Source: a virus. From it: a DNA stretch of 36,601 nt. The notes below the pieces were generated by a model, which saw nothing but the letters and a program-made list of their open reading frames with translations, was not told the origin of the DNA and did no database searches. The translations under genes and the position numbers were made by a program. The stretch is taken from the IMG/VR virus record IMGVR_UViG_3300029954_000046, positions 1-36,601 of that record; one strand, written 5' to 3'. Positions 3,988 to 34,429 of the stretch are shown here, in pieces (positions within the stretch are counted from its first letter, which is position 1; each line of letters starts with the position of its first letter).

Positions 3988-4307
3988 CACTCCCCCCACT
4001 TCGGTGGCTTCCCATGAAAGATGGCCCAAATAGCGCCACCAAGCAGGACAAATGGATAAATAAATGTCACCAACTTCCTCACATTCCTACCGAGCCAAGA
4101 GAACGCTGCAGCTCCAGTCTTAGCGCCACTGAAGATGGTGACCAACTCTGCTGTTGATGCGATGTTTGCCTTCGTCAGTTCGGTATTCGCAGCCAGGGCC
4201 TCATGCAGCTTAAGAAACTCGTCACGCCCCTCTTGAAATTGAGCGATGGTGAATTCGCGAAACTGTTGCTCCGTCATTACAATGATTTTTTCGTCAATAC
4301 GATCCAT
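3987..4307 (-). CDS. Single-pass membrane protein of the lysis block, possible holin or antiholin
   Basis: The protein has 106 residues. The N-terminal 75 are soluble and helical (MTEQQFREFTIAQFQEGRDEF and onward), with a possible short amphipathic helix. One transmembrane segment lies at about 79-98 (LVTFIYPFVLLGGAIWAIFH), followed by a short tail HGKPPKWGE. Small phage proteins with this layout are common next to endolysins. The start overlaps the stop of the upstream gene (TAATG at 4307) and its own stop overlaps the endolysin start. Position suggests a role in lysis timing, but no specific holin family is recognised. Confidence 0.65.
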   Translation of the reverse strand: MDRIDEKIIVMTEQQFREFTIAQFQEGRDEFLKLHEALAANTELTKANIASTAELVTIFSGAKTGAAAFSWLGRNVRKLVTFIYPFVLLGGAIWAIFHGKPPKWGE

Positions 4308-4942
4308 TACGCGGCCACCTTCCCATGCAATGCTTCCAACTCATCTGGCGAATACACAAAACCTTTTTTGCGTGGGAACGCTTGAAATCCCCAAACGGGA
4401 GCAGAGTTTTCGTGAGCCCCATGCTGGGGACCGCGATGAAACTTTTTATTCAGTGGCAACATGTTCGGCCAGCTATCTACAAAGGTTTCTGGATTTTCGG
4501 GGTCAAATTTCACCCAGTCGAATCCTCTTGCTTTTGAGATCTGAATAATCATCCAGATTAAAGACTGCTCGACTGGATAAAGTTCATCGGTCGGTTGATC
4601 TGTGACCAAGTCAAGTACAGGCAAGTGCGTGATCAGACCGAGGGCAATGCCATGGACCACATGCCAGTCAACACCATCTGACCATGCCCATTCGCAAAAG
4701 ATATGGTGATACTCGATGTCAGTCAGTTGACCGCTAATGCAGCACCGCGTCTCATGCGACTTTTCATCCTTCTTCATATGCCGAAACGTCGATGATTCTG
4801 TACGCGGCGATGGATGATTCGGGTAAAAGACGCTTTCATGGAGAGTGGATTTGAACGCATGCTCTTGCGCTATTCCCTCATCGAAAACTACCAGCTCGAT
4901 ATCATTTTTTTCCATCTTGACCATTTCCTTTTCCACGTTCAT
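4307..4942 (-). CDS. HNH-like protein of unknown role
   Basis: The 211-residue protein contains CCISGQLTDIEYHHIF at about 67-82 and NMLPLNKKFHRGPQHGAHE at about 160-178. The order Cys-Cys, His-His, Asn, His, His resembles an HNH nuclease fold, with a long insertion (85-158) between the two halves. The match is by eye only. Catalytic competence is uncertain because the zinc-binding Cys pairs of classical HNH proteins are incomplete. The start ATG overlaps the stop of the chaperone-extension frame (ATGA); other ATGs lie 18 and 27 bp inside. Many phages carry an HNH protein near terminase, but this one lies between tail chaperone and lysis genes. It could serve in packaging or recombination, or be a degenerate homing enzyme. 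Confidence 0.6.
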   Translation of the reverse strand: MNVEKEMVKMEKNDIELVVFDEGIAQEHAFKSTLHESVFYPNHPSPRTESSTFRHMKKDEKSHETRCCISGQLTDIEYHHIFCEWAWSDGVDWHVVHGIALGLITHLPVLDLVTDQPTDELYPVEQSLIWMIIQISKARGFDWVKFDPENPETFVDSWPNMLPLNKKFHRGPQHGAHENSAPVWGFQAFPRKKGFVYSPDELEALHGKVAA

Positions 4943-5271
4943 CGTCGCGATTTTCCGATTGCATGTAACGACTTAATAACGCCATCCAAGCGTTCGATAA
5001 CAGCAACCTGCAATTTAGTTTCAGCATCCTTTCCTTTTTTCCAATCAGTAAATGCCTTGGAATTGAAGTAGTCGGAGACACTGGAAGGCGTCATTTTTAA
5101 TGCCGCTTCGTAACTTTGATTGCAGTATATGGAGGCCTCAACAGCTAGCTCATTGAGCCTTTCCGAATACTGCTGCCGCGCCCTCGGAAATAAGGGAAGC
5201 AAAGGGAAATCGGGCCGGCGGTAAGTCCGGCCCTCCTTCCAACTTGGTCGATAAGAACACGATTCCCTCAT
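4939..5271 (-). CDS. Extension frame of a probable frameshifted tail-assembly chaperone
   Basis: This open frame overlaps the 3' end of the 257-residue gene at 5150-5923 by about 120 bp. Only the part after the overlap looks protein-like: SERLNELAVEASIY, then SYEAALKMTPSSVSDYF, then a charged helix ending KSRR. The first 40 residues encoded inside the upstream gene look random. The only other internal ATG, at 5094, has no ribosome site. This is the arrangement of lambda G/GT-type tail chaperones, where a minority of ribosomes shift frame to make a longer protein. A +1 or -2 shift is needed here. A fusion through Ala249 would have about 328 residues. Independent initiation at ATG 5271 is less likely but not excluded. 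Confidence 0.6.
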   Translation of the reverse strand: MRESCSYRPSWKEGRTYRRPDFPLLPLFPRARQQYSERLNELAVEASIYCNQSYEAALKMTPSSVSDYFNSKAFTDWKKGKDAETKLQVAVIERLDGVIKSLHAIGKSRR

Positions 5272-5923
5272 CGCTAAACGTCAACGAAAGCAGATGATCC
5301 AACTGAGGAAGTGTGTCGAGGAAGTTGAAAAGCAATGAGATAAAGATGCGATCAGGAAATGCCATGAATATGGCGAGGCGTGCCTCCATCCAGTCGTCAA
5401 ACTCAGAATCACTCACCAGCAACGGTGAGGGCACGCTTTCACTGGGTCGCGACAATGTCGCAGCCATCGCACCAACTCGCCATCCGTTGCGCCCCTTCAG
5501 CTTGATACGATCCCCAAGCATTAACCGCTCAATGGCCTCAGCATCCGCGCCGAGCAACGGGCGCATATTCCAAGTGTCGCCAGCTAAGTCGCAAACGTGA
5601 ACGCTATCTTTCGCATAGTCAGCCCCTTGGCGAATGTAGTCACTGAAGTTTAGGTCACCAACGGAGAAATTCGGATCATCATCGATGTTGGCCAGGTAAT
5701 GTGCCATCACCATGGCGCGCTCCAGAACTGTCCACGCCCTCACGTCAACGATCTGCCCCGTTCTTGGCTGAGGATCAGCAATAACAATCAGCTTCAATGC
5801 TTCGGTTGTACCGGCCTCTTGCTGGGCTGCCGGTAAGTTACATAGTCGAATAGCATCGCCAATACTCATCTCACGCAATTGAGCATTGAGACGACGGGTG
5901 CGAAATGGAGTGAAGGTTTTCAT
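5150..5923 (-). CDS. Probable tail-assembly chaperone, short form
   Basis: The 257-residue soluble protein starts MKTFTPFRTRRLNAQLREMSI. Its C-terminal part (FMAFPDRIFISLLFNFLDTL) is hydrophobic and helical. There is no catalytic motif. It lies after the tail tube and tube-associated genes, and its end overlaps a second open frame that lacks its own start signal. This is the typical layout of a tail-assembly chaperone made in short and frameshifted forms to hold the tape measure protein. The tape measure gene is about 25 kb away, not immediately downstream, which is unusual. A 9-bp inverted repeat (5927-5951) lies just before the ATG, and there is no clear Shine-Dalgarno sequence. Confidence 0.6.
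   Translation of the reverse strand: MKTFTPFRTRRLNAQLREMSIGDAIRLCNLPAAQQEAGTTEALKLIVIADPQPRTGQIVDVRAWTVLERAMVMAHYLANIDDDPNFSVGDLNFSDYIRQGADYAKDSVHVCDLAGDTWNMRPLLGADAEAIERLMLGDRIKLKGRNGWRVGAMAATLSRPSESVPSPLLVSDSEFDDWMEARLAIFMAFPDRIFISLLFNFLDTLPQLDHLLSLTFSDEGIVFLSTKLEGGPDLPPARFPFASLISEGAAAVFGKAQ
5175..5206 (-). other. Candidate +1/-2 frameshift sites
   Basis: Two sites could bring ribosomes from the 257-residue frame into the extension frame. At 5175-5182 the message reads GGCGCGGC, and a tRNA on the in-frame GCG codon (5179-5177) can re-pair perfectly with the GCG two bases upstream, a -2 shift. At 5204-5206, CCC is followed by T, a context that allows a +1 slip. Both +1 and -2 shifts are known in tail-chaperone genes of other phages. 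Which site is used, if any, cannot be told from sequence. Confidence 0.4.
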
Positions 5924-8696: not shown

Positions 8697-9566
8697 TTAC
8701 TTCTTCCCAAATAGACGTGAGCGCACCTTATCCGACTTCAGGCGACGCATCTGGGCACGCGCAGAATGCGACTTCTTTTGCATCTTGCGAATGGCCAATT
8801 TTTGCTTTGCCGATAGACGGACGCGCCCGGACAAACGCTTTTTGATGCGCACCTTCTTGCCATTACGAATTGCGTTGACCATAGTGGCATCAAGCAAGGC
8901 ATCAGGGTCAACCTCGTCATCGTCGTCATCATCAAAAGCATGACTGTCGATGTCGTCCGCGATTCCATCGGCATCGCTAGGCAGTTTATTGGCAAGCAGC
9001 TCCTGTACGCGAGCTGCGGCATCCACATCCAGATCGTTCAGAAGCGCGGAAATGTCTTCTTCCGACACGCCCTTGTCCGCCAAATAATCGCCAGCAGATT
9101 CCATAGCTGTCGCAATCAGATCGGATTCATCCTCGTTGATGTCTCCGTTAAAGTCTGGATCAGCGATACCAATCAACATAGCCTGCAAGCGATCAGCAAG
9201 ACTTTCGCCGTCATCCAGATCGTCATCCGCAGTTTCAGCCCATTGATGCATTGCTCCGGCCACACTGAGGTCTAGATCTGCATCAGTGTAGTCGGCAGCG
9301 GCATCGCTACCAGGATCAACGACAGCGCCGGCCGCATCGTCAAGTGCCGGGTCTTTCTGCGCATCACTGATGATGGCAGGAGTTTTGTCTTTATTCAGAT
9401 CCGATGAAATGCCGCCAGTGGTTCCGGCAAGTTGATCACTCAAAGGATCTGCCCCTGGGTCGGTTTTTCTGCCACTGGCGTCGTCTAACAATCCCTGACT
9501 GTTTGTGGCTCGTTGAGCCTTTTTAATTTGGTCGAAATACGCCCCTGCTGGGTGTGCGTTATACAT
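8697..9566 (-). CDS. Acidic protein with EF-hand-like loop and basic tail
   Basis: The 289-residue protein has an unusual charge layout. Residues 30-225 are very acidic, with runs of Asp including DDDDDD at 212-217. Residues 236-289 are very basic (KKVRIKKRLSGRVRLSAKQK and onward). Residues 136-147, DPDFNGDINEDE, match the canonical EF-hand loop D-x-D-x-N-G-x-I-x-x-x-E and lie between two predicted helices. A weaker second loop, DLDVDAAARVQE, starts near 178. AAGGAT lies 7-8 nt before the ATG at 9566. It lies between sheath and tube genes. It could be a scaffold, a DNA-associated internal virion protein or a calcium-dependent assembly factor. Confidence 0.65.
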   Translation of the reverse strand: MYNAHPAGAYFDQIKKAQRATNSQGLLDDASGRKTDPGADPLSDQLAGTTGGISSDLNKDKTPAIISDAQKDPALDDAAGAVVDPGSDAAADYTDADLDLSVAGAMHQWAETADDDLDDGESLADRLQAMLIGIADPDFNGDINEDESDLIATAMESAGDYLADKGVSEEDISALLNDLDVDAAARVQELLANKLPSDADGIADDIDSHAFDDDDDDEVDPDALLDATMVNAIRNGKKVRIKKRLSGRVRLSAKQKLAIRKMQKKSHSARAQMRRLKSDKVRSRLFGKK

Positions 9567-12092: not shown

Positions 12093-13784
12093 TTAGAACA
12101 TGTTGATGACGTTAATAACGGCCACACCCTTGCTCGATGGCTGATGCGGATTCACCGAAGTAAAATTCCGCGCATAGAAGCCAGCACCAGAGCGGAAGTC
12201 ATCATTTACCGCCAGAGGGATGTAAGTCGGGGGCACAGCATCGCCCAATACAAAGGGGCAACGCGCAACTTGAGTCGAGCGCCCAATCGCAAGGATTTGG
12301 GCTGTACCTGCCGCAGCGTTTTCAACGGCGCGCGGGTTGTAGTACACCTCATATCGGCCGAAAAGCGTTCCCAGGCGGTAGATGCCTGGTCGAGCTACCA
12401 GGCCGGAAGGCTCAAACAACTCCTGTGGCATTGAAAGCAACTGCGCCTGCACAACCCTGCCAACATACAAATGCGTGATGCCGTGGTCCATCGTGTCTTC
12501 GGCCATTTGCTGATCGGATTGACCCAAGACAGCCTGGAAGTCTTGCCACATCATGGCGCGCGTCTTATGCGCAACCTGAGTCTGGAACTCCATATCCCAG
12601 GTGCGCGAATTGCTAGACGCCAGAGGAATAGCTTTACGCAGGACGTTGTAGTGACGCTCCATGGCGAACTGATTACGCACAGCAATCAGCGCTTCCGAAG
12701 CCATATCCAGGCCCAGTTCATTGGCATATTGGGTCTTGGCGTCGATGGTTTCTCGAACGCGTGCGCGCCATGGCGTGGCGTACAGATTGAAGGTAGCCGC
12801 CTGAGTGATCACCTCTGGAGAAAGGCTTGGCGCATTTTCGAAGTCGATGAAGCCTTCGGCGGCGACAATCGTACCAACCGGCAATGCAGTATTAAACGCA
12901 ATTGCCACCACGCCTGTGGCAGGCGCAACCGTGCCGGTCATGCTGTACTGAACTCCGCCAAGAGTCACATAGCCAGTAATCTGACTGGTAGACGAGCTGG
13001 ATGGTGCATTGGCACTCTCCATGCCGCAAGGGAATCCATTGACGTAGACCAATGTACGACCACGCAGCACTGCGACAGGGGTATTGCCGCCAGTGATGCC
13101 GGAAATCTGGCCGGCAAAGTTGGTTTGATCCGTGCTCGCCAGTGTCACAAGGCGTTCGGCAGAAATGAATGGCTGCCCGACATTCACGCCATCCATGATG
13201 TCGTTTTGGTTGTAGCCACCAAATGTTGTGCCTGCCAAATGGCTAACAATGGCAAGGCGCGCCCAGTTGGAGCCAATATCGGCAGGAAGATAAGTAGCCG
13301 CAGGGAATGCCTCAGCGATTGCACTGGTAATAGCAACCACCACGCGATTCGGCTGAGTACCCAATGGGTCGGAATGCTCGGTGTTGCCAACGCCGTCAAG
13401 CATCCGGCCGTCGCCCTGCTTTTTGTTAACTTCTTTTCGGTCGGTTGCGGCCACCAAGCCTTGTTGCAAGGCGGCCTCAATTACGTCAGCCGTCGGAATC
13501 GAGCCATGTTCGCGCTCATACACGCCCATGCCGATCAGTACGGAGTCAAGAACACGTTCGCGATTTTTGTCGTCCAATTGGTTGATAATATCCTCCACCG
13601 CTTTCGGCAGGGATCGGCCAGCACTGTTGCCGGCCTCTTTTAACGCAGAAGCGCTAAGACCAACAACAACCGAGTCCAATGCGGACTCCGTTCCGGTTTG
13701 GCGTTGAGCCTCACCGTACAGCGAGTCGAAGAACGACTCAATTTTTTCAGCGCCGCTTTGCGGCTGGTAAATTGCACGGGGCAT
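12093..13784 (-). CDS. Major capsid protein
   Basis: The 563-residue protein starts MPRAIYQPQSGAEK at ATG 13784, with AGGA 7-8 nt upstream. A longer frame back to 13928 would run through a terminator and is rejected. The first 125 residues are helical and charged and may be a scaffold-like region trimmed by the prohead protease. The rest has capsid-like features: YATPWRARVRETIDAKTQYANEL, WDMEFQTQVAHKTRAMMWQDF, and a C-terminal RYEVYYNPRAVENAAAGTAQILAIGRS with P-domain-like spacing. A beta-rich segment in the middle (about 225-330) may be an insertion. It opens a transcription unit with its own candidate promoter and is followed by two small genes and the sheath gene. Confidence 0.8.
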   Translation of the reverse strand: MPRAIYQPQSGAEKIESFFDSLYGEAQRQTGTESALDSVVVGLSASALKEAGNSAGRSLPKAVEDIINQLDDKNRERVLDSVLIGMGVYEREHGSIPTADVIEAALQQGLVAATDRKEVNKKQGDGRMLDGVGNTEHSDPLGTQPNRVVVAITSAIAEAFPAATYLPADIGSNWARLAIVSHLAGTTFGGYNQNDIMDGVNVGQPFISAERLVTLASTDQTNFAGQISGITGGNTPVAVLRGRTLVYVNGFPCGMESANAPSSSSTSQITGYVTLGGVQYSMTGTVAPATGVVAIAFNTALPVGTIVAAEGFIDFENAPSLSPEVITQAATFNLYATPWRARVRETIDAKTQYANELGLDMASEALIAVRNQFAMERHYNVLRKAIPLASSNSRTWDMEFQTQVAHKTRAMMWQDFQAVLGQSDQQMAEDTMDHGITHLYVGRVVQAQLLSMPQELFEPSGLVARPGIYRLGTLFGRYEVYYNPRAVENAAAGTAQILAIGRSTQVARCPFVLGDAVPPTYIPLAVNDDFRSGAGFYARNFTSVNPHQPSSKGVAVINVINMF

Positions 13785-13870
13785 GTTTCTCGTCCTATAT
13801 AGAGTTGGTGTTGTCACACCCACGTGGGGCTTTTTGACCAGTCCATAGTAAGAGCCGTGCAAGTACCTAT

Positions 13871-13889
13871 TTTTTGGCACTTTCCGAAA
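13871..13889 (-). promoter_or_regulatory. 19-bp motif before the capsid gene, candidate late promoter
   Basis: Plus-strand reading TTTTTGGCACTTTCCGAAA. It matches the motif at 28709-28727 at 18 of 19 positions. It lies just downstream (in transcription) of the terminator at 13902-13925 and about 85 bp before the capsid ATG. This is the right place for a promoter or an activator site. It does not look like a sigma-70 or sigma-54 promoter. Confidence 0.6.
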
Positions 13890-13901
13890 CCGAAGAAGCA
13901 T

Positions 13902-13925
13902 AAAAAACCCGGCGATTGGCCGGGT
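13902..13925 (-). terminator. Rho-independent terminator after the 1013-residue gene
   Basis: On the minus strand, ACCCGGC and GCCGGGT pair around a CAATC loop and run into six T residues. It follows the stop of the polyvalent protein at 13950 and insulates it from the capsid gene. Confidence 0.9.
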
Positions 13926-13949
13926 CATATATCACTGAGAAATCTTGTT

Positions 13950-16900
13950 TTAGTCTGCCGCCGCCCCGAATATCGAATCGAGAAGCGGCTTGTTTGATGC
14001 GGCCTTTTCAAACACCTTTTCTTCTCGAATGGCTGCGAATAGATTATCCATGGCGGCATTAATCCGTTCGCGTTCTTCACCCTCTGGGAATGGTTTGTCA
14101 AAAGAATTACTCAACAAATTGAAATAATGCTTGTTATCCGCCATCACGCTAAGGTAGTCATTTTGGCGATCCATTGCTGACAATTTATCCTCAACGTACC
14201 CTTGGAATGCGCGGGCAGCAAGCTCCTCGATCTCGGACCAGTATTTCCCAATTTCACCGCTATCCAGCTTGACGGCCTCCGCTTTGAAATTTGAAGTCTT
14301 TGGTCCAGTCGGTAAGCCGACACAATAGATTCCTGACTCCGTTGGCGCGATCAAATCTGCGTCATGATAGTAGGCCACCGCCAGCAATCGCCATGTGTAC
14401 CAGTTCTTCTTCATCTTTTTTGATGAACTATATTTCTCAAAGTATGCATCCACTACCAAGACGGCGGCAGCAGCACTGCCAGCTTTTTTAATTTCGGCGG
14501 CGATCCCGGTTGTTCGATCAACGATATTGCGTTTCGCCATCCCAATATCAGCATCACTGTAGGAATGTACTTGCCGAATCCTCTGGCCCCCATCGAGCAA
14601 GGCTGCTTGCAGTTCAATGACAGCTTGCTTAATCACGCCATCAGGCAAGAGTTCTGGCTTGGCTGTGACGAAATCCCCCTTGCGACCCGTGACCTTCTCA
14701 TTAACAAGCTCATGGAGAACATTATCGAAGGCATGAAATACTTCGTGGCCAAGGCAGCCGCCACCGCCCATCTTGGTAATATTGACAACTCTATGTGTCG
14801 GCTCATAGTGAGCACGTGCAGCCCCCTTCCCCCCGGTTCCGCGCGCTCCAAATGCCAACCCAATACGACCACCAAGCCCAAGGTGTTGCATTTCGACGCC
14901 TAACACATCTGCCAGATCAGCCATTGCACCAGCCGTCTGCTCTACGTGAAATTTTGCGCTCATCGGATCTTTTAGCACCCAGTTTCCTGACTGAACTGCA
15001 CTCAGGCCGATAGCTTGTTCTAGCGCCTTAGTTCCACTTACGGCAATTTCTCGACCGCCTTTCCTGACAAATTGATCTGCGACTTTCAGTTGAAAATTAA
15101 CCTCTTGTTGAGTGGCTGTCTTGGGTTGTTTTGCACGAGTCTTATCAGCCCAGCTCCAGTCTGCGACTCTTCCATTTTTCGCATTGGCTACATGCCCGGC
15201 AAAGCTATCACTCCCCATGGAGCGGCGATAATTCAGCATTTTGAAGAAGCGCTCCCCGAACGTTAGCCATGATCTGGTTGTCTGACTTTCTGTGAGATTG
15301 CGCAATTTTGATACTCTTGAGATTACTTCTCTGGCCTCACGATTTTCAGATTGTCCAGTGCGTAATTTATCCAATTCTGGATTTGAGTCTCGTCTCCAGT
15401 TCGAAAGTTCAGAGAAATGCGTATCAGCCGACTGTTTAGCCGCGATCAATTCGGCCTCCTGCTCAACCGCAGTCCACTTCCGTCTTTTACGACTCTCGAT
15501 TTCGTATTCCAGTGACACGACCCTACGGCGCGCCTCCTCTGCGCGGTCGTAAACTTCCCCAGATTCCTGCTCCAGCTCTAGGCGTCTTTTTTGCAGTTTT
15601 GTCGCCTCAACCATTAATGCGGCGTATGCGTCGGCTTCATCAGCATTCAACGTTGTCCCGGATAGCTCATCTCGGATTTCACTTATAGTGTCCATTACCG
15701 CTTCAGCGGTAAATTTATCTTCCAAGCGATCACGAATTGCCTCAAGCCCTATCGCATAGTCTTTTCGAACTTGAGGGGTGCTGGCAGTCGGCTCAGGACC
15801 AATTGATGTGTAAATTTTATCAATCAAAAATCCGGCCGCAGGCTCCATTCCTCCGTCCTGAAGAGCCTGCCAATCGGTCTTACCAAATAGGTTTGACTTG
15901 GTAATCAGGTCGGCTGCTTCACGGGGATTTTGCTCGATTGCATCAAAATCGATGGCTGTCGTGCGCACACGTTGCCCTGTTTTACGCGCTTGAAAGATGG
16001 TACTCGCGGCGCGCTCCTTGCGACTGTCGGCAATGTAGCCCGTATCCTTGTAACGATAGTTCGGGCTGCTGGGATCGTCAGACAACTCACCTTCACCATC
16101 ATTTGAAATCTCGTTGATGTCTTCTACGTCGGTCAGCCGGCGAACTATGGCAGCTACAGCGGCCGCAGCCTTGATACGACCCATAACTTCAGCAGCCTCT
16201 TTCAATGCTGATACTGCGCTGGCAAGCTGGCCAGATAGCTTAATTCGCTCCAGAGGCTCGATTGAGTCCAGGGTTGCCATCACCCCGCCGGAAGGGGCAT
16301 TACCACTCGCAGCTTGCATGCCTGGATCACTATTGATTACACTTGAGCTTGGGCCGTTCGGGCGCAATACCAGGCTTTTGGGGTCCAACACCATCGACTC
16401 GCCATCGAATTGCGCTGAGAAAGTAGCCTCATCCTCTTGTTCAAGTGTTGGATGTGCACCACTTCCGGCCGCGCCGTCGATAGGTGTTCCGGTCGAATTT
16501 GCGCTATTATCAATTCGCGAGGCGGATTCAGGAACTTTCAGTGAGTCCAAGCTGGCATGGCTGTCTGAAGTCCCCATGCCCCTCGCTCCTTCTAAGAAAT
16601 TCCCTCGGTCATCATCGTAGCTAGTAACAATCCAGGTTTTCTCAGTTCCATCCCAATCTAGTCGAATCACAACAACCTTTGCAGGAACGTCATCCGTTGC
16701 GATATAAACCCGCTTCAACCCCTGCTTGTCGTGGATAACTCGACCTGTCCGCAATACTTCAGGTATGCGCTCAACAAAAGCCATGCCACGACGGTGGATG
16801 ATATGGGCAAGACCAAGATGCTCGTTCCCGTAGACGAACCCGATTTCCCCTAGCTCTGGGTGCCGATATGCATCAGGCACTTCACCACTCTTTTCTGCTA

Positions 16901-16991
16901 GCAATTTCCCAATGGCTTTTTCTGGCTTGTTGGAATAACCATGAAAAATCGGTCCAAATCCATCGATTGAGTCAAGCAAATTTTCCTGCAT
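13950..16991 (-). CDS. Polyvalent protein: PBECR-like nuclease, LPD5-like and zincin-like (LPD1) regions
   Basis: The protein has 1013 residues. About 45-127 (GEIGFVYG, LAHIIHRRG with H63 and H66, K105, WIVTSYDDD) resembles the PBECR family of phage RNase/toxin domains. About 308-400 (NYRYKDTGYIADSRKE, then ITKSNLFGKTDWQAL) resembles LPD5. About 440-530 is a charged coiled coil. About 690-985 resembles LPD1: AHYEPTHRVVNITKMGGGG leads to H749-E750-V-F-H753, an HExxH zinc motif, with a possible third ligand at E920/E922 before ARAF. Such proteins are usually packaged and injected to disarm host defences. LDS(I/L) recurs at both ends and in the first quarter. It is followed by a strong terminator. 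Domain names are from pattern recognition only. Confidence 0.75.
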   Translation of the reverse strand: MQENLLDSIDGFGPIFHGYSNKPEKAIGKLLAEKSGEVPDAYRHPELGEIGFVYGNEHLGLAHIIHRRGMAFVERIPEVLRTGRVIHDKQGLKRVYIATDDVPAKVVVIRLDWDGTEKTWIVTSYDDDRGNFLEGARGMGTSDSHASLDSLKVPESASRIDNSANSTGTPIDGAAGSGAHPTLEQEDEATFSAQFDGESMVLDPKSLVLRPNGPSSSVINSDPGMQAASGNAPSGGVMATLDSIEPLERIKLSGQLASAVSALKEAAEVMGRIKAAAAVAAIVRRLTDVEDINEISNDGEGELSDDPSSPNYRYKDTGYIADSRKERAASTIFQARKTGQRVRTTAIDFDAIEQNPREAADLITKSNLFGKTDWQALQDGGMEPAAGFLIDKIYTSIGPEPTASTPQVRKDYAIGLEAIRDRLEDKFTAEAVMDTISEIRDELSGTTLNADEADAYAALMVEATKLQKRRLELEQESGEVYDRAEEARRRVVSLEYEIESRKRRKWTAVEQEAELIAAKQSADTHFSELSNWRRDSNPELDKLRTGQSENREAREVISRVSKLRNLTESQTTRSWLTFGERFFKMLNYRRSMGSDSFAGHVANAKNGRVADWSWADKTRAKQPKTATQQEVNFQLKVADQFVRKGGREIAVSGTKALEQAIGLSAVQSGNWVLKDPMSAKFHVEQTAGAMADLADVLGVEMQHLGLGGRIGLAFGARGTGGKGAARAHYEPTHRVVNITKMGGGGCLGHEVFHAFDNVLHELVNEKVTGRKGDFVTAKPELLPDGVIKQAVIELQAALLDGGQRIRQVHSYSDADIGMAKRNIVDRTTGIAAEIKKAGSAAAAVLVVDAYFEKYSSSKKMKKNWYTWRLLAVAYYHDADLIAPTESGIYCVGLPTGPKTSNFKAEAVKLDSGEIGKYWSEIEELAARAFQGYVEDKLSAMDRQNDYLSVMADNKHYFNLLSNSFDKPFPEGEERERINAAMDNLFAAIREEKVFEKAASNKPLLDSIFGAAAD

Positions 16992-17064: not shown

Positions 17065-17091
17065 CAAAGAAAAGGCCCACCGAAGTGAGCC
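17065..17091 (-). terminator. Rho-independent terminator after the 931-residue gene
   Basis: On the minus strand, GGCTCAC, a TTCG tetraloop and GTGGGCC (one G:U pair) are followed by TTTTCTTT. It lies in the gap between the two large polyvalent genes and gives each its own transcript end. Confidence 0.85.
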
Positions 17092-17174: not shown

Positions 17175-19970
17175 TTATGCCAGCGCGCTTCTTGCCTGTT
17201 CCACCATATAAGCGGAATAGGCCTCTGCTGCGCCATTGAATAACCCCATCATGTCGGCATCGCCTTGGTAGTCGTCATGAATTCTGGTCAGTTGCTCCGC
17301 CAGCGCCAGGTCCATCATGTCGGCGCTGTTATCAATCACTGATTTCAGATAGGCCATATCGCTTTCACGCTGCGCAGAGCTTCCATCGCCTCCCTCATCC
17401 TGCTTCACTGGGTCGGAATCGGCGATAGCCTGTTGTTTCGCAAGCTGAGCATCCATTGACGGCACGGCTGGATCTGCGCCAGGCTCAGGCTCCTCCGGCT
17501 CGGCGGCCGGAGATAGCGGCTCACCTGTCACCATTGGTGCCGGCGACACGGCGGGTGGCTGGTCAGGCGCTGCCGGCGCATTCGGGTCATCGTTTTCTCC
17601 AGCCAGGTTGATTTTCGGCCCATCGATATGCGCAGGTATGCCAGGATCAATATCTGCCTTCATAATGTTGGTGTCCGGCTGACCGCTGGAAATGTCGGAA
17701 TCTTCGGAAATCGGATCGACAGCGGCATCCGGCGCAGCCTCAATAGGCTTAGCAAGCTCACCCAGCGTAATTTCCAGCCCTGTAGCCTCAGTAAATGCCA
17801 GGGCCAAGCCATCAGCACCGATGCCATCCATAGTGGCAACCTCGTTCAAGGTCACGCCGCGTTTCTTGTAGCAGCGCAGATCGTATTCATCATTGCTCAG
17901 TATGATTTGCACCAGATTGATGCCAGACTTAGCACCACGTGGTAGAGCGAATTGCAGACCGCCTTCCGGCAGGAATACAAACTGTTTGGCTCCAGTCATC
18001 GCAGCAAATTTATTGCCGCCAAGTTGCTGGGCAATAGTCTTGGCAATGGCCTTAGCATCCTCACTGGACAGACCGCTTTGAGTAGGCTCATCTTCAGTCA
18101 CTTCGTCCTTCGCATCGCCTTCCGCTGGTGCTTGTAGTGGTAAATCCCCGCTTTCTTGGGATTGAGTTCCGGCATGCTGCTGCTGTTGCACCACAGGCCC
18201 CTCAGTAAGAACATTGATTTGAGAGGCAATAAAATCGGCGTGCTTGCTCATGTCATTCGGTACCTTGCCGGCGGGCGGCGAAAAACCCTGGCCAAGCTTA
18301 GATACGTTCACCTGGAAATTGCAATTGGTGATGTTGTATTTGCTGGCGCTGATGCCGGTATCCACTGAAAATGTGTACACATCACCGTCACCACCTTCCT
18401 TGATCAGCTTGCCATATTGCTCGCCTGCCCAGCCCAAATTACGCAGAGCGTTTCTCACTTCGATAATGCGGACTTGCATCAAGTGATCGCAAACATCCTG
18501 ATTTCCGTCATCGGCAGAAAATGCCGCATAACTGCCATAGCTAGCAATGTCTTTGATATCGTACTTCGGCGCGCCGAGCTCAATCAGCACCGCCTCTTCT
18601 TCTGCTGGCAATGTACTGACCGGCATGGTCGAGACAGTTTCACCTAGCGGAACGCCGCCATTTTCCTCGGCTGCTGATGGTGCGGCCGGACCAGATACGA
18701 ATCGCGCCGGAGGCGTAATGCTTGTGGCCATAGATGCTTTTACGGCAAGCTGAGCCTTATGGTCTGCAACCTGTTGGGCGAGACTAGCTACTTCAGATTG
18801 CAATGTGCTAAGGCTTGCGACCTTTGCTTCGGCGGTCTTCTTGAGCACTTCAATTGAACTTAGGCGTTCATCGCGATCTGCATTTATTTTGGCAAATCGC
18901 GCCGAATTTCGCGCCGCTACAGTCATGATGCGCCGGGAGATAATGCGCGGGTTTAGTTCCTGCCCATTCTCCTTTGCAACAAGAATCGTCACATCCTTCT
19001 TATTGAGCATCCAGCGCCAGGAGATTAACTCGTCCGACTGCTGAACCTTGCTCGGGCTACTGCCTGCGCTGTGAAAGTAGACAGTTATGGACTGGCCATC
19101 TGTTAGCGCAAATAGCACCACCACATTGATTTCGCCACGGATTCTAAGTGGCTTGGATACCGACATGGCATCAACAGTTGGACCGCTACCCGAAGTCTGC
19201 TGTAACACACGCTGGAGCTGCTGCATTTTGCGCTGAAGCTGACCATATTGAACAACCAAGGCATCCAAAACCAACTCAGCATCCGCATCAGCCTCAATAT
19301 CAGGCATTGTGATAGGGTCCAGGATTAAACCTTCAGGGTCGGTTTGTCGCAATTTATATAGTAAGTCGGACATATCCATGCCCATGGGTGCGGGGGCAGC
19401 TTCAGTGCCAGCCCATTGGATTGAATCCATAATGAGGGTTCCATTGGTTGGTAAGCCGGCCAGGGTGAACGGCTTTGTGGTGTCGCAATTCTTTAGCCAG
19501 TATTTGAACTGGCCGATGGAGCAAGAGACAACGCTGCCCATGCCCTTCCAGTCCTTGCTATAGCTGTCTTTGTAGCCTTGGATAGCGTCGGCGCGGCAGC
19601 TAAATCCGATCATTACCTTGGCCTCATCGAATAGGCCGGTAGCTGGATTGAGCTGGTTGACAACATGCGTCTGGTCTGACTCGGGCCAAGGCCCAATAAA
19701 TACGTCTATCGCATCACCGTCTGCGCCAACCGTGCCAGAAATTTCACCGTAGTGATGCGCCATGCGGGTGCGCCACGCTGTGCCATCACTATCCACACCT
19801 TCACGGTAGCTATTGCGCGGATTCTCAATGACAATTAATAGGCCATGCAGGCGAACGCGTCCCTTGAGGTAGCGCCCAGCGGCTAACTGCCCATCGGTTG
19901 GTTCAATATATCCATTCAGGCCCAGCGCCCCATCATGGGCAGCGGACTCAACACGCGCGAAATCATCCAT
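17175..19970 (-). CDS. Polyvalent protein with pyrophosphatase-like domain
   Basis: The protein has 931 residues. About 36-160 resembles the InPase domain of phage and plasmid polyvalent proteins: GTVGADGDAIDVFIGP carries D84, D86 and D89 in the pyrophosphatase metal-binding pattern, though the usual Glu/Pro is Ala87. About 275-360 (ISWRWMLNKKDVTILVA, RRIMTVAARNSARF) may be a DarA-type region. A coiled coil follows (about 365-412). About 635-740 (IAQQLGGNKFAAMTGAKQF, IILSNDEYDLRCYKKRG) is a segment common in phage/plasmid polyproteins. The C-terminal 200 residues are acidic and Pro-rich, then helical. The ATG at 19970 lacks a ribosome site; an out-of-frame ATG at 19978 with AAGG opens a 20-codon peptide that may couple translation. 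It is probably packaged and injected. Confidence 0.7.
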   Translation of the reverse strand: MDDFARVESAAHDGALGLNGYIEPTDGQLAAGRYLKGRVRLHGLLIVIENPRNSYREGVDSDGTAWRTRMAHHYGEISGTVGADGDAIDVFIGPWPESDQTHVVNQLNPATGLFDEAKVMIGFSCRADAIQGYKDSYSKDWKGMGSVVSCSIGQFKYWLKNCDTTKPFTLAGLPTNGTLIMDSIQWAGTEAAPAPMGMDMSDLLYKLRQTDPEGLILDPITMPDIEADADAELVLDALVVQYGQLQRKMQQLQRVLQQTSGSGPTVDAMSVSKPLRIRGEINVVVLFALTDGQSITVYFHSAGSSPSKVQQSDELISWRWMLNKKDVTILVAKENGQELNPRIISRRIMTVAARNSARFAKINADRDERLSSIEVLKKTAEAKVASLSTLQSEVASLAQQVADHKAQLAVKASMATSITPPARFVSGPAAPSAAEENGGVPLGETVSTMPVSTLPAEEEAVLIELGAPKYDIKDIASYGSYAAFSADDGNQDVCDHLMQVRIIEVRNALRNLGWAGEQYGKLIKEGGDGDVYTFSVDTGISASKYNITNCNFQVNVSKLGQGFSPPAGKVPNDMSKHADFIASQINVLTEGPVVQQQQHAGTQSQESGDLPLQAPAEGDAKDEVTEDEPTQSGLSSEDAKAIAKTIAQQLGGNKFAAMTGAKQFVFLPEGGLQFALPRGAKSGINLVQIILSNDEYDLRCYKKRGVTLNEVATMDGIGADGLALAFTEATGLEITLGELAKPIEAAPDAAVDPISEDSDISSGQPDTNIMKADIDPGIPAHIDGPKINLAGENDDPNAPAAPDQPPAVSPAPMVTGEPLSPAAEPEEPEPGADPAVPSMDAQLAKQQAIADSDPVKQDEGGDGSSAQRESDMAYLKSVIDNSADMMDLALAEQLTRIHDDYQGDADMMGLFNGAAEAYSAYMVEQARSALA

Positions 19971-20012
19971 GTGGTCATGTTATTGCCTTGCTTAGGAGGT
20001 GATAAGTTGCGG

Positions 20013-20022
20013 TTTCCGATAG
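20013..20022 (-). promoter_or_regulatory. TTTCCGATAG motif before the 931-residue gene
   Basis: TTTCCGATAG (plus-strand reading) is identical to the 10 bases at 36361-36370 and shares the core of the 19-bp motif at 13871 and 28709. It lies about 43 bp before the ATG at 19970, in a 226-bp gap that also contains DnaA boxes. It is a candidate phage promoter or activator site. Confidence 0.45.
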
Positions 20023-20114
20023 GACTGATGCAGCCCAGTAGGCAACTGAGAATAGATTTTGATCAAGCAAACTTATTGCTTAAATATCAGTGACATAGAT
20101 AAATAACAGCCAGG

Positions 20115-20149
20115 TTATCCACAAGTCTTTCCACATAAACTGTGGATAA
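20115..20149. promoter_or_regulatory. Pair of consensus DnaA boxes in inverted orientation
   Basis: TTATCCACA at 20115-20123 and TGTGGATAA at 20141-20149 are both perfect DnaA 9-mers facing each other across 17 bp. A looser CTTTCCACA lies between them at 20127-20135. The left flank (20060-20110) is AT-rich and carries a 6-bp inverted repeat (AAGCAA and TTGCTT). This could be part of a replication origin, a DnaA-controlled promoter region or a titration site. The same bases can also fold as a long hairpin. Confidence 0.6.
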
Positions 20150-20196
20150 GTTTTAACTCCAAACGACGACTTTTCTCTTGCACTCAGTAAATTTTC

Positions 20197-20646
20197 TTAG
20201 ACTGAAAATCCATTGATGTCATCCCAGATGTCGGCCACGGCATTATTTGTTTCAAAACTGTCTGCATAGCGGACAGCCGCCAATACCGACATCTGCTCAT
20301 TGGTAATGTCCGGGGATATTTCATAGCTCTGGCCTGCTTCACCGATAGAACGCACTTGAATTTTGTTCTCGGGGTCAAACCTGCTCAACTCAGGAGAAAA
20401 CGTCAGCATTCCCTGCGCCTTGCGAGCGAAGAAATGAGGGATTGACGTGGTTATCTGCTGGCCGGTAAGCAATAAGTCCCGATCCTGAAGGTTCATATTG
20501 GTGACCAAGGCAATATCATCCCGCAGACGAACAGATGAGTATGCCGGCGCTTTCAGTATGGATAAGATGCCTGTCTTCTCATCGTAATGAGCCAGAGTAG
20601 TAGCGTTCTTGACGCCGAATCCACCAATATTGACTTGAATTAGCAT
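20197..20646 (-). CDS. Hypothetical protein next to the polyvalent genes
   Basis: The 149-residue protein starts MLIQVNIGGFGVKN, is beta-rich at its N-terminus and has a helical C-terminal part (MSVLAAVRYADSFETNNAV). No catalytic motif, signal peptide or membrane segment is visible. It follows the 284-residue gene by 2 bp, so they are co-transcribed. It ends at the gap with DnaA boxes. Its place suggests that it is another packaged or polyvalent-associated protein, but this is inference only. Confidence 0.6.
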   Translation of the reverse strand: MLIQVNIGGFGVKNATTLAHYDEKTGILSILKAPAYSSVRLRDDIALVTNMNLQDRDLLLTGQQITTSIPHFFARKAQGMLTFSPELSRFDPENKIQVRSIGEAGQSYEISPDITNEQMSVLAAVRYADSFETNNAVADIWDDINGFSV

Positions 20647-20648
20647 GG

Positions 20649-21503
20649 TCAGTAATACAAGCTCACGCGCAATTGGTCATTATCTGCAAGGTCATCACCC
20701 TGTGGATAGTTGATACCAGTGAACGGTTTGAGCGATGCATCTGCCTCTTTCTCATTCGCGGCGATTGCGCGGTCGGCCTCAGACTGAACCGGCTCACGCG
20801 CGATGACATTGTATTTTCCTGCGCTCTCGGCTTGAGCCTGTGCGTCCTCAGACTTCTCATCAACAGTATTCGCGGGAACTGGGCTACCGCCGTCATTGCG
20901 CTGCTGCTGATCGGCATCTGCCACCTCATTATCACGCTCAACCAATACCTTACTTTCAACGTGGTCGCCTTGATCAGGGGTAAAGAAATTTGGGTCGGCT
21001 TGATAAGCATCATCAAGCAATGGAAGAGTATCAAGCTCACTCTTAAGCTCGTCACGTTTCATCTTCACTTCAGTGATCTGCTTATCTAGCTCAGCATGCT
21101 TCTGCTGCAACAAGATTTCCATTTTTGGAACTGGGGTACGAATGGATGCTGGCAATTGCACTTTCTGACGAGTCAATTGCTGTTGAAAGCGCTGACGGCC
21201 GCTATCCATTGCCTTGACGATTTCAGCAATCGCTTCATCTTCACTTTCCTGAGCTCGAACTGGAAGCGATTTCCCGTTCAGCTTGACCGCGAATATGTCA
21301 CCGGTCGTTGTAACGAGCAGTTCGACAACCTGGCCATCTGCAAATGTGCATTTAATTGGGCGATAGCTAACGCCCGAAGTGCGCCTAGCGCCGCCGGTTG
21401 CATCTGCCTCAATTTCGTCTTCGCCGTGCTGAGCGAATTTTTGCTTCAAATACTTCTCAGCAGTACCGTTATCCAGCGAATTAAAAGCTAGCTCTTGTGT
21501 CAT
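20649..21503 (-). CDS. Possible DarA N-terminal-like protein
   Basis: The protein has 284 residues. About 45-125 (GVSYRPIKCTFADGQVVELLVTT, IFAVKLNGKSLPV, AIAEIVKAMDSGRQRFQQQL) resembles the N-terminal domain of DarA-type 'defence against restriction' proteins that are carried in virions. About 128-162 is a charged coiled coil (KMEILLQQKHAELDKQITEV). The C-terminal 120 residues are acidic and low-complexity, ending in RVSLYY. There is no enzyme motif. It lies between the spike protein and the large polyvalent proteins, which supports a packaged role. The family match is a recollection and needs a profile search. Confidence 0.5.
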   Translation of the reverse strand: MTQELAFNSLDNGTAEKYLKQKFAQHGEDEIEADATGGARRTSGVSYRPIKCTFADGQVVELLVTTTGDIFAVKLNGKSLPVRAQESEDEAIAEIVKAMDSGRQRFQQQLTRQKVQLPASIRTPVPKMEILLQQKHAELDKQITEVKMKRDELKSELDTLPLLDDAYQADPNFFTPDQGDHVESKVLVERDNEVADADQQQRNDGGSPVPANTVDEKSEDAQAQAESAGKYNVIAREPVQSEADRAIAANEKEADASLKPFTGINYPQGDDLADNDQLRVSLYY

Positions 21504-33571: not shown

Positions 33572-34429
33572 TTACTTTCGGCCAACGTTGAACATGCGAG
33601 AAATTAAGCCTCGTCCAGCCGAATCGGCCTTGCGCTCTTCCGATTCTGGTTCGGCGTCGGTCTCCACCAGGGATAAAGACAGAAAGCGGTCCGCGCCAGC
33701 AAGGCGACCCGCATCGCCCAAATGAATGGCGGCAGGAGCTATCGAGTCAAACGATCTTTCTCGTTTTCCACAACCACTGGCAAGCATCGAAAGCATTTCT
33801 TCATTCTCCTCGTGCAATTGATGTAGCACCACGGCCTGTTGCTCGTACTCACCTTGCAGACGGTCATACATTTGATTCACTGCATCAAACATTTGCATAC
33901 ACTCAGCGCTGTCCAACAGCGCAAAATTCCGCTCGCCATTTACGCTGTCTAGAGCCACCTCATAGCCGCGATTGGTCGAGTAGTTTGGCTCCAGGACGTA
34001 ATCGAAGCCATAGAAGGCGAACGGCATCGAAATATCTCCGCAACGCTTGGAGTCGATAGCGGAGCTGAAGCCGCCGGCTTTCGATTTAAATAGGCGCTCT
34101 GCGAGCTTTCCAGAGGGCGTATCAAGAAATTCTGATTCGTGCTCTATCGTACCGTCAGCCTTAGCGCGCAGCAGCGTGGTGCGGATAGCCGGCTCAAGTG
34201 CTACTTGTTTGCCATCCACGATGCCACCCTCAGTTGGATTCATGCCGAATTTGACGCGTGGCCAGTGGCCGTAATAGCCGATCATGTCCCCCTTTTTCAC
34301 ACGCTCTTGTATTTCTCCGCCATTGATCAAGCGTGCCAGAGCGGGGTTATCCAAGTTACGGTCAACGCCACGGAAACGACGGCCGCGATCATTCACGTTG
34401 TAGGTAATGACGCCTGTAGAGCTTCCCAT
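33572..34429 (-). CDS. Prohead protease
   Basis: The 285-residue protein resembles prohead maturation proteases. It has GYYGHWPRVKFGMNP near 51-65, a likely catalytic His in TIEHESEFLDTPSGK (H97) and a likely catalytic Ser in AGGFSSAID (S122 or S123). This His-Ser order is that of the herpesvirus-like prohead protease fold. About 190-220 is a coiled coil (QGEYEQQAVVLHQLHEENEEMLS), perhaps for scaffold binding. The Ser/Glu-rich C-terminus may be self-cleaved. It lies directly after portal; no separate scaffold gene follows. It should trim capsid and internal proteins before DNA packaging. Confidence 0.75.
   Translation of the reverse strand: MGSSTGVITYNVNDRGRRFRGVDRNLDNPALARLINGGEIQERVKKGDMIGYYGHWPRVKFGMNPTEGGIVDGKQVALEPAIRTTLLRAKADGTIEHESEFLDTPSGKLAERLFKSKAGGFSSAIDSKRCGDISMPFAFYGFDYVLEPNYSTNRGYEVALDSVNGERNFALLDSAECMQMFDAVNQMYDRLQGEYEQQAVVLHQLHEENEEMLSMLASGCGKRERSFDSIAPAAIHLGDAGRLAGADRFLSLSLVETDAEPESEERKADSAGRGLISRMFNVGRK

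Follow-up and report, generated by a model that had tools for sequence, protein, structure and literature searches.

The stretch of DNA analysed here (the window) comprises 36,601 bp and is the whole of one virus record, IMG/VR IMGVR_UViG_3300029954_000046. Downstream of the spike gene it carries a gene for a 931-amino-acid (aa) protein in which a pyrophosphatase domain (InPase) is fused to a homologue of DarA, a protein that lines the capsid of phage P1. The question raised by this locus is what a pyrophosphatase on a DarA-like protein is for, and how it could come to act in the infected cell. All genes and features described below lie on the minus strand. By homology and comparison, which give its domain identities, a conserved active site and a conserved motif, the block to which the gene belongs is a divergent P1-type dar operon.

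The scheme proposed is that the products of the dar operon would be carried in the head and would leave it with the DNA. The DarA core (aa 237-417) and Hdf would bind the inner capsid wall, and the N-terminal InPase would be carried into the prohead through its fusion to the DarA anchor. The prohead protease Pro would cut at D236|A237, leaving a ~26-kDa enzyme free in the head and a ~74-kDa DarA on the wall; the DdrB-like protein would likewise be divided at Pro-type sites, with its RNase-like PBECR1 domain apart from its metallopeptidase. At infection the enzymes would enter the cell at once, and InPase would most likely hydrolyse a phosphoanhydride of nucleotide type (a defence signal or inhibitor) or clear pyrophosphate. 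Taken as a whole, from the packaged carrier and the freeing cut to ejection with the DNA and phosphoanhydride hydrolysis, the scheme is considered fairly probable, its cut, release, ejection and substrate being inferred.

The InPase-DarA protein

The darA-like gene (17175..19970) encodes an InPase domain, a capsid-binding DarA core, linkers and a C-terminal module, as delimited by Pfam, a Protein Data Bank (PDB) profile and a fold search. The InPase domain spans aa 20-177 (19440..19913), as placed by Pfam, conservation and a fold match to soluble pyrophosphatases; the Pfam match covers residues 27-160 (E 2.1e-48). D84, D86 and D89, which the earlier note had put in a pyrophosphatase-like fold, lie inside this match. 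The domain has the features of a type-I pyrophosphatase, namely an OB-fold and acidic metal ligands including DxDxxD (D84/D86/D89, D115, E116, K118), and its catalytic-type residues (E49, R56, Y74, D84, D86, D89, D115, E116, K118) are conserved at 96-100% among 77 unique domains. It matches soluble pyrophosphatases by fold and profile, the fold-search matches being individually weak (E about 0.01). Pyrophosphatase-type catalysis is likely, judging from the intact site and the structural match.

A DarA_N domain is found at residues 234-356 of the same protein (E 6.3e-33). Both of the profile searches suggested by the earlier note, for InPase and for DarA_N, were thus significant here; its polyvalent domains were confirmed, while the DarA_N of the 931-aa protein itself had been overlooked. 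The inner capsid of P1 is lined by 55 pairs of DarA and Hdf, which disappear from it along with the DNA, and each virion has about 55-100 copies of DarA (PMC12810830). The core of the window protein (aa 237-417; 18720..19262) was delimited by the core profile and AlphaFold2 (AF2), and consists of a helix at 236-259, a beta domain and a long helix of capsid-binding type at 341-415. The profile, built from nine cores with P1 DarA included, matched P1 DarA in the PDB (9ukm_I, E 1.8e-74); a single-sequence phmmer comparison of P1 DarA with the 931-aa protein, which is independent of the profile, gave E 1e-16. The fold search with the AlphaFold model returned 9ukm_I and 9vz0_I at the top, followed by about 30 soluble pyrophosphatase chains. 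The protein therefore combines DarA_N with homology to the capsid-binding core of P1 DarA, as is expected of a P1-type DarA. Against the NCBIfam equivalog for full-length DarA it reached 69 bits, over residues 284-412 only, with a cut-off of 350, and for this reason it is described as a homologue of the DarA core and not as a full-length orthologue.

Bulk removal of pyrophosphate by a virion InPase would add little beyond the host enzyme, because P1 carries only about 55-100 copies of DarA per virion. We lean towards a specific nucleotide as the substrate, or towards local action, in preference to bulk pyrophosphate. A use against host defences is plausible from the P1 precedent. Iyer et al. 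(PMC5512222) suggested a role of InPase on nucleotide signals or in pyrophosphate clearance.

Predicted cleavage by the prohead protease

The protease motif was derived from the capsid site of P1, where the Edman-mapped cut of gp23 is MLE|SVAAEM (PMC9024508); in the form [LMF][DE]|[SAG] it recurs in Pro itself and in DarA. The alignment of major capsid proteins (MCPs) has at this position MLD|GVGN in the window, SLD|SANS and HLD|SASS in others and MFE|SVAQ in D6. Pro of the window (33572..34429, 285 aa) matches P1 Pro (1.4e-19) and has four motif matches of its own, at aa 161, 173, 182 and 228. The narrower motif [LMF]D[SG][VA] was observed 36 times in MCP and 31 times in Pro, against 1.7 and 1.6 expected after shuffling. 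DarA proteins contain 118 (33 expected), with 77 outside the InPase, core and CM regions (21 expected), and proteins with the short modules NM and CM, described below, contain 33 (12 expected) and 13 (2.5 expected). Enrichment was not seen in tail sheath, tube or spike.

In the DarA-like protein the predicted cleavage site is D236|A237 (LVLD|ALVV; 19260..19265). The AF2 model has a low-confidence linker at ~170-235 and a helix from 236. The site is conserved among DarA homologues, the alignment column holding D or E in all 117 and the P1' residue being Ala in 115. P1 DarA reads DLLE68|AISS in this column, and E68|A69 is the sole match of the broader motif within that protein. The position adjoins the first modelled residue of P1 DarA, residues 1-69 being missing from the cryo-EM density and the model beginning at 70; the N-terminus is reported to lose ~9 kDa, which was attributed to Pro (PMC12810830). 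P1 and D6 have Glu at the cut position in MCP, Pro and DarA alike, while elsewhere it is almost always Asp. A second conserved Pro-type site of the window protein, D218|P219 (LILD|PITM; 19314..19319), corresponds to LD|SV or LD|AV in most relatives, and its proline at P1' may weaken it here. The Hdf proteins of the window, P1 and D6 have no motif match, in agreement with the report that P1 Hdf is unprocessed (PMC12810830). The simplest reading of the sequences and the model is that Pro cuts InPase free inside the head.

The Asp-Ala pair could instead be structural and mark no cut site, with InPase staying covalently on capsid-bound DarA and being ejected as part of one polyvalent protein. A helix is predicted to begin at this Asp, a position in which Asp is a frequent N-cap, and 11 of the proteins surveyed below have InPase C-terminal of the core, where a cut of the D236|A237 type would not release it. 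Such a role does not account for the Glu of P1 and D6, which replaces Asp in step with MCP and Pro, nor for the loss of about 9 kDa from P1 DarA attributed to Pro, and covalent retention is held to be unlikely. Release by Pro is the preferred reading, and several points weigh against it in turn. Besides the possible N-cap, no clear signal was obtained when mature P1 DarA was subjected to Edman sequencing (PMC9024508), and the conservation counts are drawn from related, non-independent sequences. The motif is also enriched in homologues of two structural genes of the window, 8697-9566 and 5150-5923, which have no known processing; these may be further protease substrates, to judge from their sequences. 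As the cause of the reported 76-kDa form of P1 DdrB the Pro motif was rejected, since the sole match (residue 441) gives the wrong size. For the phage of the window itself, cleavage, packaging and enzyme activity rest on inference.

Relatives, modules and neighbouring genes

Scans gave 80 viral loci (of 213 relatives) and 47 loci in bacterial genomes. The survey set comprised 119 distinct DarA-core proteins of at least 300 aa, the complete ones measuring about 410-2061 aa and some being cut by contig ends. In 75 of them InPase precedes the core and in 11 it follows it; the other 33 have none. Other domains, in a sample of 39, were LPD3 (12), ddrB-ParB (4) and PBECR1 (2), with MutS_I, LPD1, PBECR3 and a lectin-like fold found once each. 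PBECR1 is placed in the DdrB-like gene in the window, inside DarA at two loci (L015, L054) and in separate genes at two others (L083, L120). The DarA core is the constant part, and from these comparisons it appears to be a carrier that is anchored to the capsid and whose cargo can be exchanged. The 2061-aa protein (locus L044, 8926-15111) joins a DarA core to MutS domain I (1.5e-18), PBECR3 and LPD3, and this mismatch-repair-type domain is a possible virion cargo. Two loci from metagenome-assembled genomes labelled Subtercola and Alistipes (L109, L122) are probably misbinned contigs of proteobacterial phages.

The same counts bear on the proposal that InPase serves mainly in assembly, or as a non-enzymatic fold module, being a larger version of the cleaved scaffold-like N-terminus of P1 DarA. 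Its place in the protein is that of the removed residues 1-69 of P1 DarA, and head size shifts on loss of P1 DarA/Hdf. A purely structural part is at odds with the conservation of the catalytic residues, with the absence of InPase from 33 and its C-terminal position in 11 of the 119 proteins, and with the occurrence of related InPase domains on carriers other than DarA, for instance the Pa193 portal; the proposal is accordingly judged improbable.

Gene order bears on the proposal of the earlier note that the 7.5-kb block between spike and capsid genes is an anti-defence cassette acquired as a whole by horizontal insertion. In P1 the Dar proteins guard against type I restriction, and the cargo domains vary strongly among relatives, as such a cassette might. 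The order spike-hdf-darA is nevertheless usual in relatives, with hdf within 2 kb upstream of darA in 73 of the 119 and the spike within 5 kb upstream in 68. The block is not present or absent as a unit: the hdf/darA core persists, with cargo and x149 (the small gene between hdf and darA) moving separately, so the unit is a core with exchangeable cargo and not one inserted block. Among close relatives none was seen in which the site is otherwise intact and the block missing in full, and insertion as a single cassette is regarded as very unlikely. Homology to the P1 dar operon bears out part of the cassette idea, but two of the four genes, hdf and darA, have as their P1 homologues proteins that line the capsid and take part in head morphogenesis. 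Nor are these invariant morphogenesis genes without a polyvalent link, since the link to polyvalent families is real.

Two short modules recur in the relatives. CM, the C-terminal three-helix module of the DarA-like protein (aa 864-930; 17181..17381), is modelled by AF2 at a predicted local distance difference test score of about 95. It is helical and ~55 aa long, and in 110 of 111 matches no more than 13 aa lie between its end and the C-terminus; the matches comprise 87 open reading frames (ORFs) with a DarA core and 24 others. NM (~43 aa) was found in 55 ORFs, usually near the N-terminus. In these loci, which were selected for DarA, all 24 non-core CM matches and all 55 NM matches are on the darA strand in ORFs starting at or after the end of darA; a few of their start codons overlap its 3' end, the overlap reaching about 500 bp in one case with a disrupted frame. 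Upstream of darA, the 1,629 same-strand ORFs, spurious ones included, gave no such match. The gene after darA carries NM in 31 of 73 cases with a CM-bearing darA and in 2 of 26 otherwise (Fisher p 0.0013, a value inflated by relatedness). A Pro-type site of a looser motif precedes NM within 22 aa in 29 of 44 cases, with 2.5 expected. Neither module has a Pfam match, and as homologues of the P1 DarA C-terminus, P1 DdrA or the capsid-targeting N-terminus of P1 DarB they scored no better than reversed controls. CM and NM may act as docking signals or packaging modules. A more general proposal, that of a P1-like delivery platform in which DarA/Hdf is the carrier, CM would recruit NM-bearing cargo, Pro would free the injected enzymes, and CM and NM would be undescribed packaging or docking modules, is put forward tentatively and is doubtful in its entirety. 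In one relative (L068, 8389-11394; residues 739-1001) CM lies inside the protein, with LD|S-type sites and another domain after it, as a polyprotein would predict.

The gene downstream, ddrB-like (13950..16991), encodes 1013 aa with PBECR1, NM, a metallopeptidase and LPD1 (Pfam); its closest homologue is at L003 15731-18286, in the same location. The RNase-like PBECR1 (aa 41-129, with His63 and Thr123; 16605..16871; Pfam 7.6e-10) has homologues in other block genes. A Pro-type site is predicted at D242|S243 (MATLD|SIEPLE; 16263..16268), between PBECR1 and NM (aa 244-286; 16134..16262), and further matches lie at aa 7, 149 and 1005. The zinc-peptidase motif HEVFH (aa 749-753; 14733..14747) is kept in 14 of 14 homologues. 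A C-terminal metallopeptidase HExxH in a gene downstream of darA is shared with P1 DdrB; the ddrB-ParB domain of P1 DdrB is absent (Pfam), and phmmer found no match between P1 DdrB and the 1013-aa protein. For these two reasons the protein is named DdrB-like, which by its position and peptidase it is, and not DdrB.

The hdf-like gene (20649..21503, 284 aa) has an Hdf core at aa 12-159 and a C-terminal extension. Its product matches DarA_N (Pfam, E 4e-15), as the earlier note had supposed, as well as the Hdf-like phrog_1620 (9e-33) and P1 Hdf (9ukm_H, 7.6e-9), and with x149 between, the gene has the position of P1-type hdf upstream of darA. The ~120-aa extension (20649-21030) starts near LLD|DA and is absent from the other Hdfs aligned. 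x149 (20197..20646, 149 aa), which the earlier note had left as unknown, matches the unnamed phrog_4179 (4e-23); its homologues in relatives are usually elsewhere, either 3' of pro or near darA on the other strand, and tblastn against phage records gave no match. An RNase H-like fold is predicted (AF2 score 95, as above). In the fold search it resembles terminase nuclease domains, but at high root-mean-square deviation, and no function was assigned; identity with DdrA was rejected for want of a match to P1 DdrA.

The remaining genes are head and tail genes of P1 type, all on the same strand (PHROG matches, P1 comparison): portal, Pro, Sit-, PmgA-, BplA- and gp16-like genes, tail fibre, baseplate/spike, major capsid protein, sheath, tube and a PmgG-like gene, the names Sit, PmgA and gp16 being based on gene order shared with P1. 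After the spike follow the hdf-like gene, x149, the 931-aa gene, the 1013-aa gene and the capsid gene, the block genes having the extents that the earlier note gave. Of the terminator and promoter that it ascribed to each large gene, the terminator-like hairpins are there, 3' of the darA-like gene (17074..17091) and of the ddrB-like gene (13906..13926); no sigma-70-like promoter was found on the minus strand in either intergenic gap, and no P1-style late promoters (AAGTNACTT boxes) were recognised in these gaps, so that promoters of their own are not supported. In the major capsid protein (gp23; 12093..13928; phrog_1014, 1e-128), D178|G179 of the ORF as listed corresponds to the P1 cleavage site. 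Its listed start (13928) overlaps the terminator hairpin, and comparison with L003 suggests that translation really starts near Met49 (13784; region 13784-13928). An HNH endonuclease-like gene lies among the structural genes at 4307-4942 (phrog_8048, 1e-23).

Comparison with known systems

Earlier publications cover the domain families and the Dar system. The present analysis joins the computationally defined polyvalent-protein families and the 2026 structure of the P1 head into one testable scheme, and offers a site rule for P1-like phages, a predicted cut position in P1 DarA and short modules that may bring proteins into heads; the substrate of virion pyrophosphatases becomes a tractable question. 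In the open-access literature (subscription journals and the domain-architecture figures of Iyer et al. lying outside what was searched) no report was found of an InPase-DarA protein with an intervening protease site, of the cleavage-site rule and its Asp/Glu co-variation, or of the CM and NM modules.

The P1 dar operon protects P1 DNA against type I restriction, and in P1 (NC_005856) the order is lydA-lydB-hdf-darA-ddrA-ddrB. The window shares with P1 the order hdf-darA-(small gene)-ddrB, a homologous DarA core and Hdf, the protease-site column and the DdrB metallopeptidase. Unlike in P1, its DarA is fused to InPase, CM and NM are present, the DdrB-like protein has PBECR1 and lacks ddrB-ParB, x149 stands between hdf and darA, and no counterpart of P1 ddrA was found; darB and ulx are outside the fragment. 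CM and NM have no detectable homology to P1 Dar proteins, and their targeting role is putative.

Closest in domain layout is the 'internal head protein' of Xanthomonas phage Rb1 (PQ569993), with InPase and a DarA core at 40% identity over aa 4-526, and with the spike and then an hdf-like gene upstream. The Rb1 protein differs in its length of 1221 aa and in its other cargo, and is followed by DarB-like and Ulx-like genes. Portal gp19 of Pa193 (9b41) also has InPase at the C-terminus of a virion protein (E 8e-33; residues 529-765 without density), the carrier being the portal and not DarA. The combinations InPase with DarA_N and PBECR1 with metallopeptidase and LPD1, among head and tail genes, are those of polyvalent proteins, and Iyer et al. 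2017 (PMC5512222) describe InPase, DarA-N, PBECR, LPD1 and metallopeptidase domains as parts of large virion-linked proteins. Self-processing by the metallopeptidase is proposed there, whereas the window has a predicted prohead-protease site between cargo and anchor. In their working, the T4 internal proteins with their capsid-targeting sequence and P1 DarB with its N-terminal signal (PMC9024508) are alike to the scheme proposed here, as packaged effectors that are delivered with the DNA.

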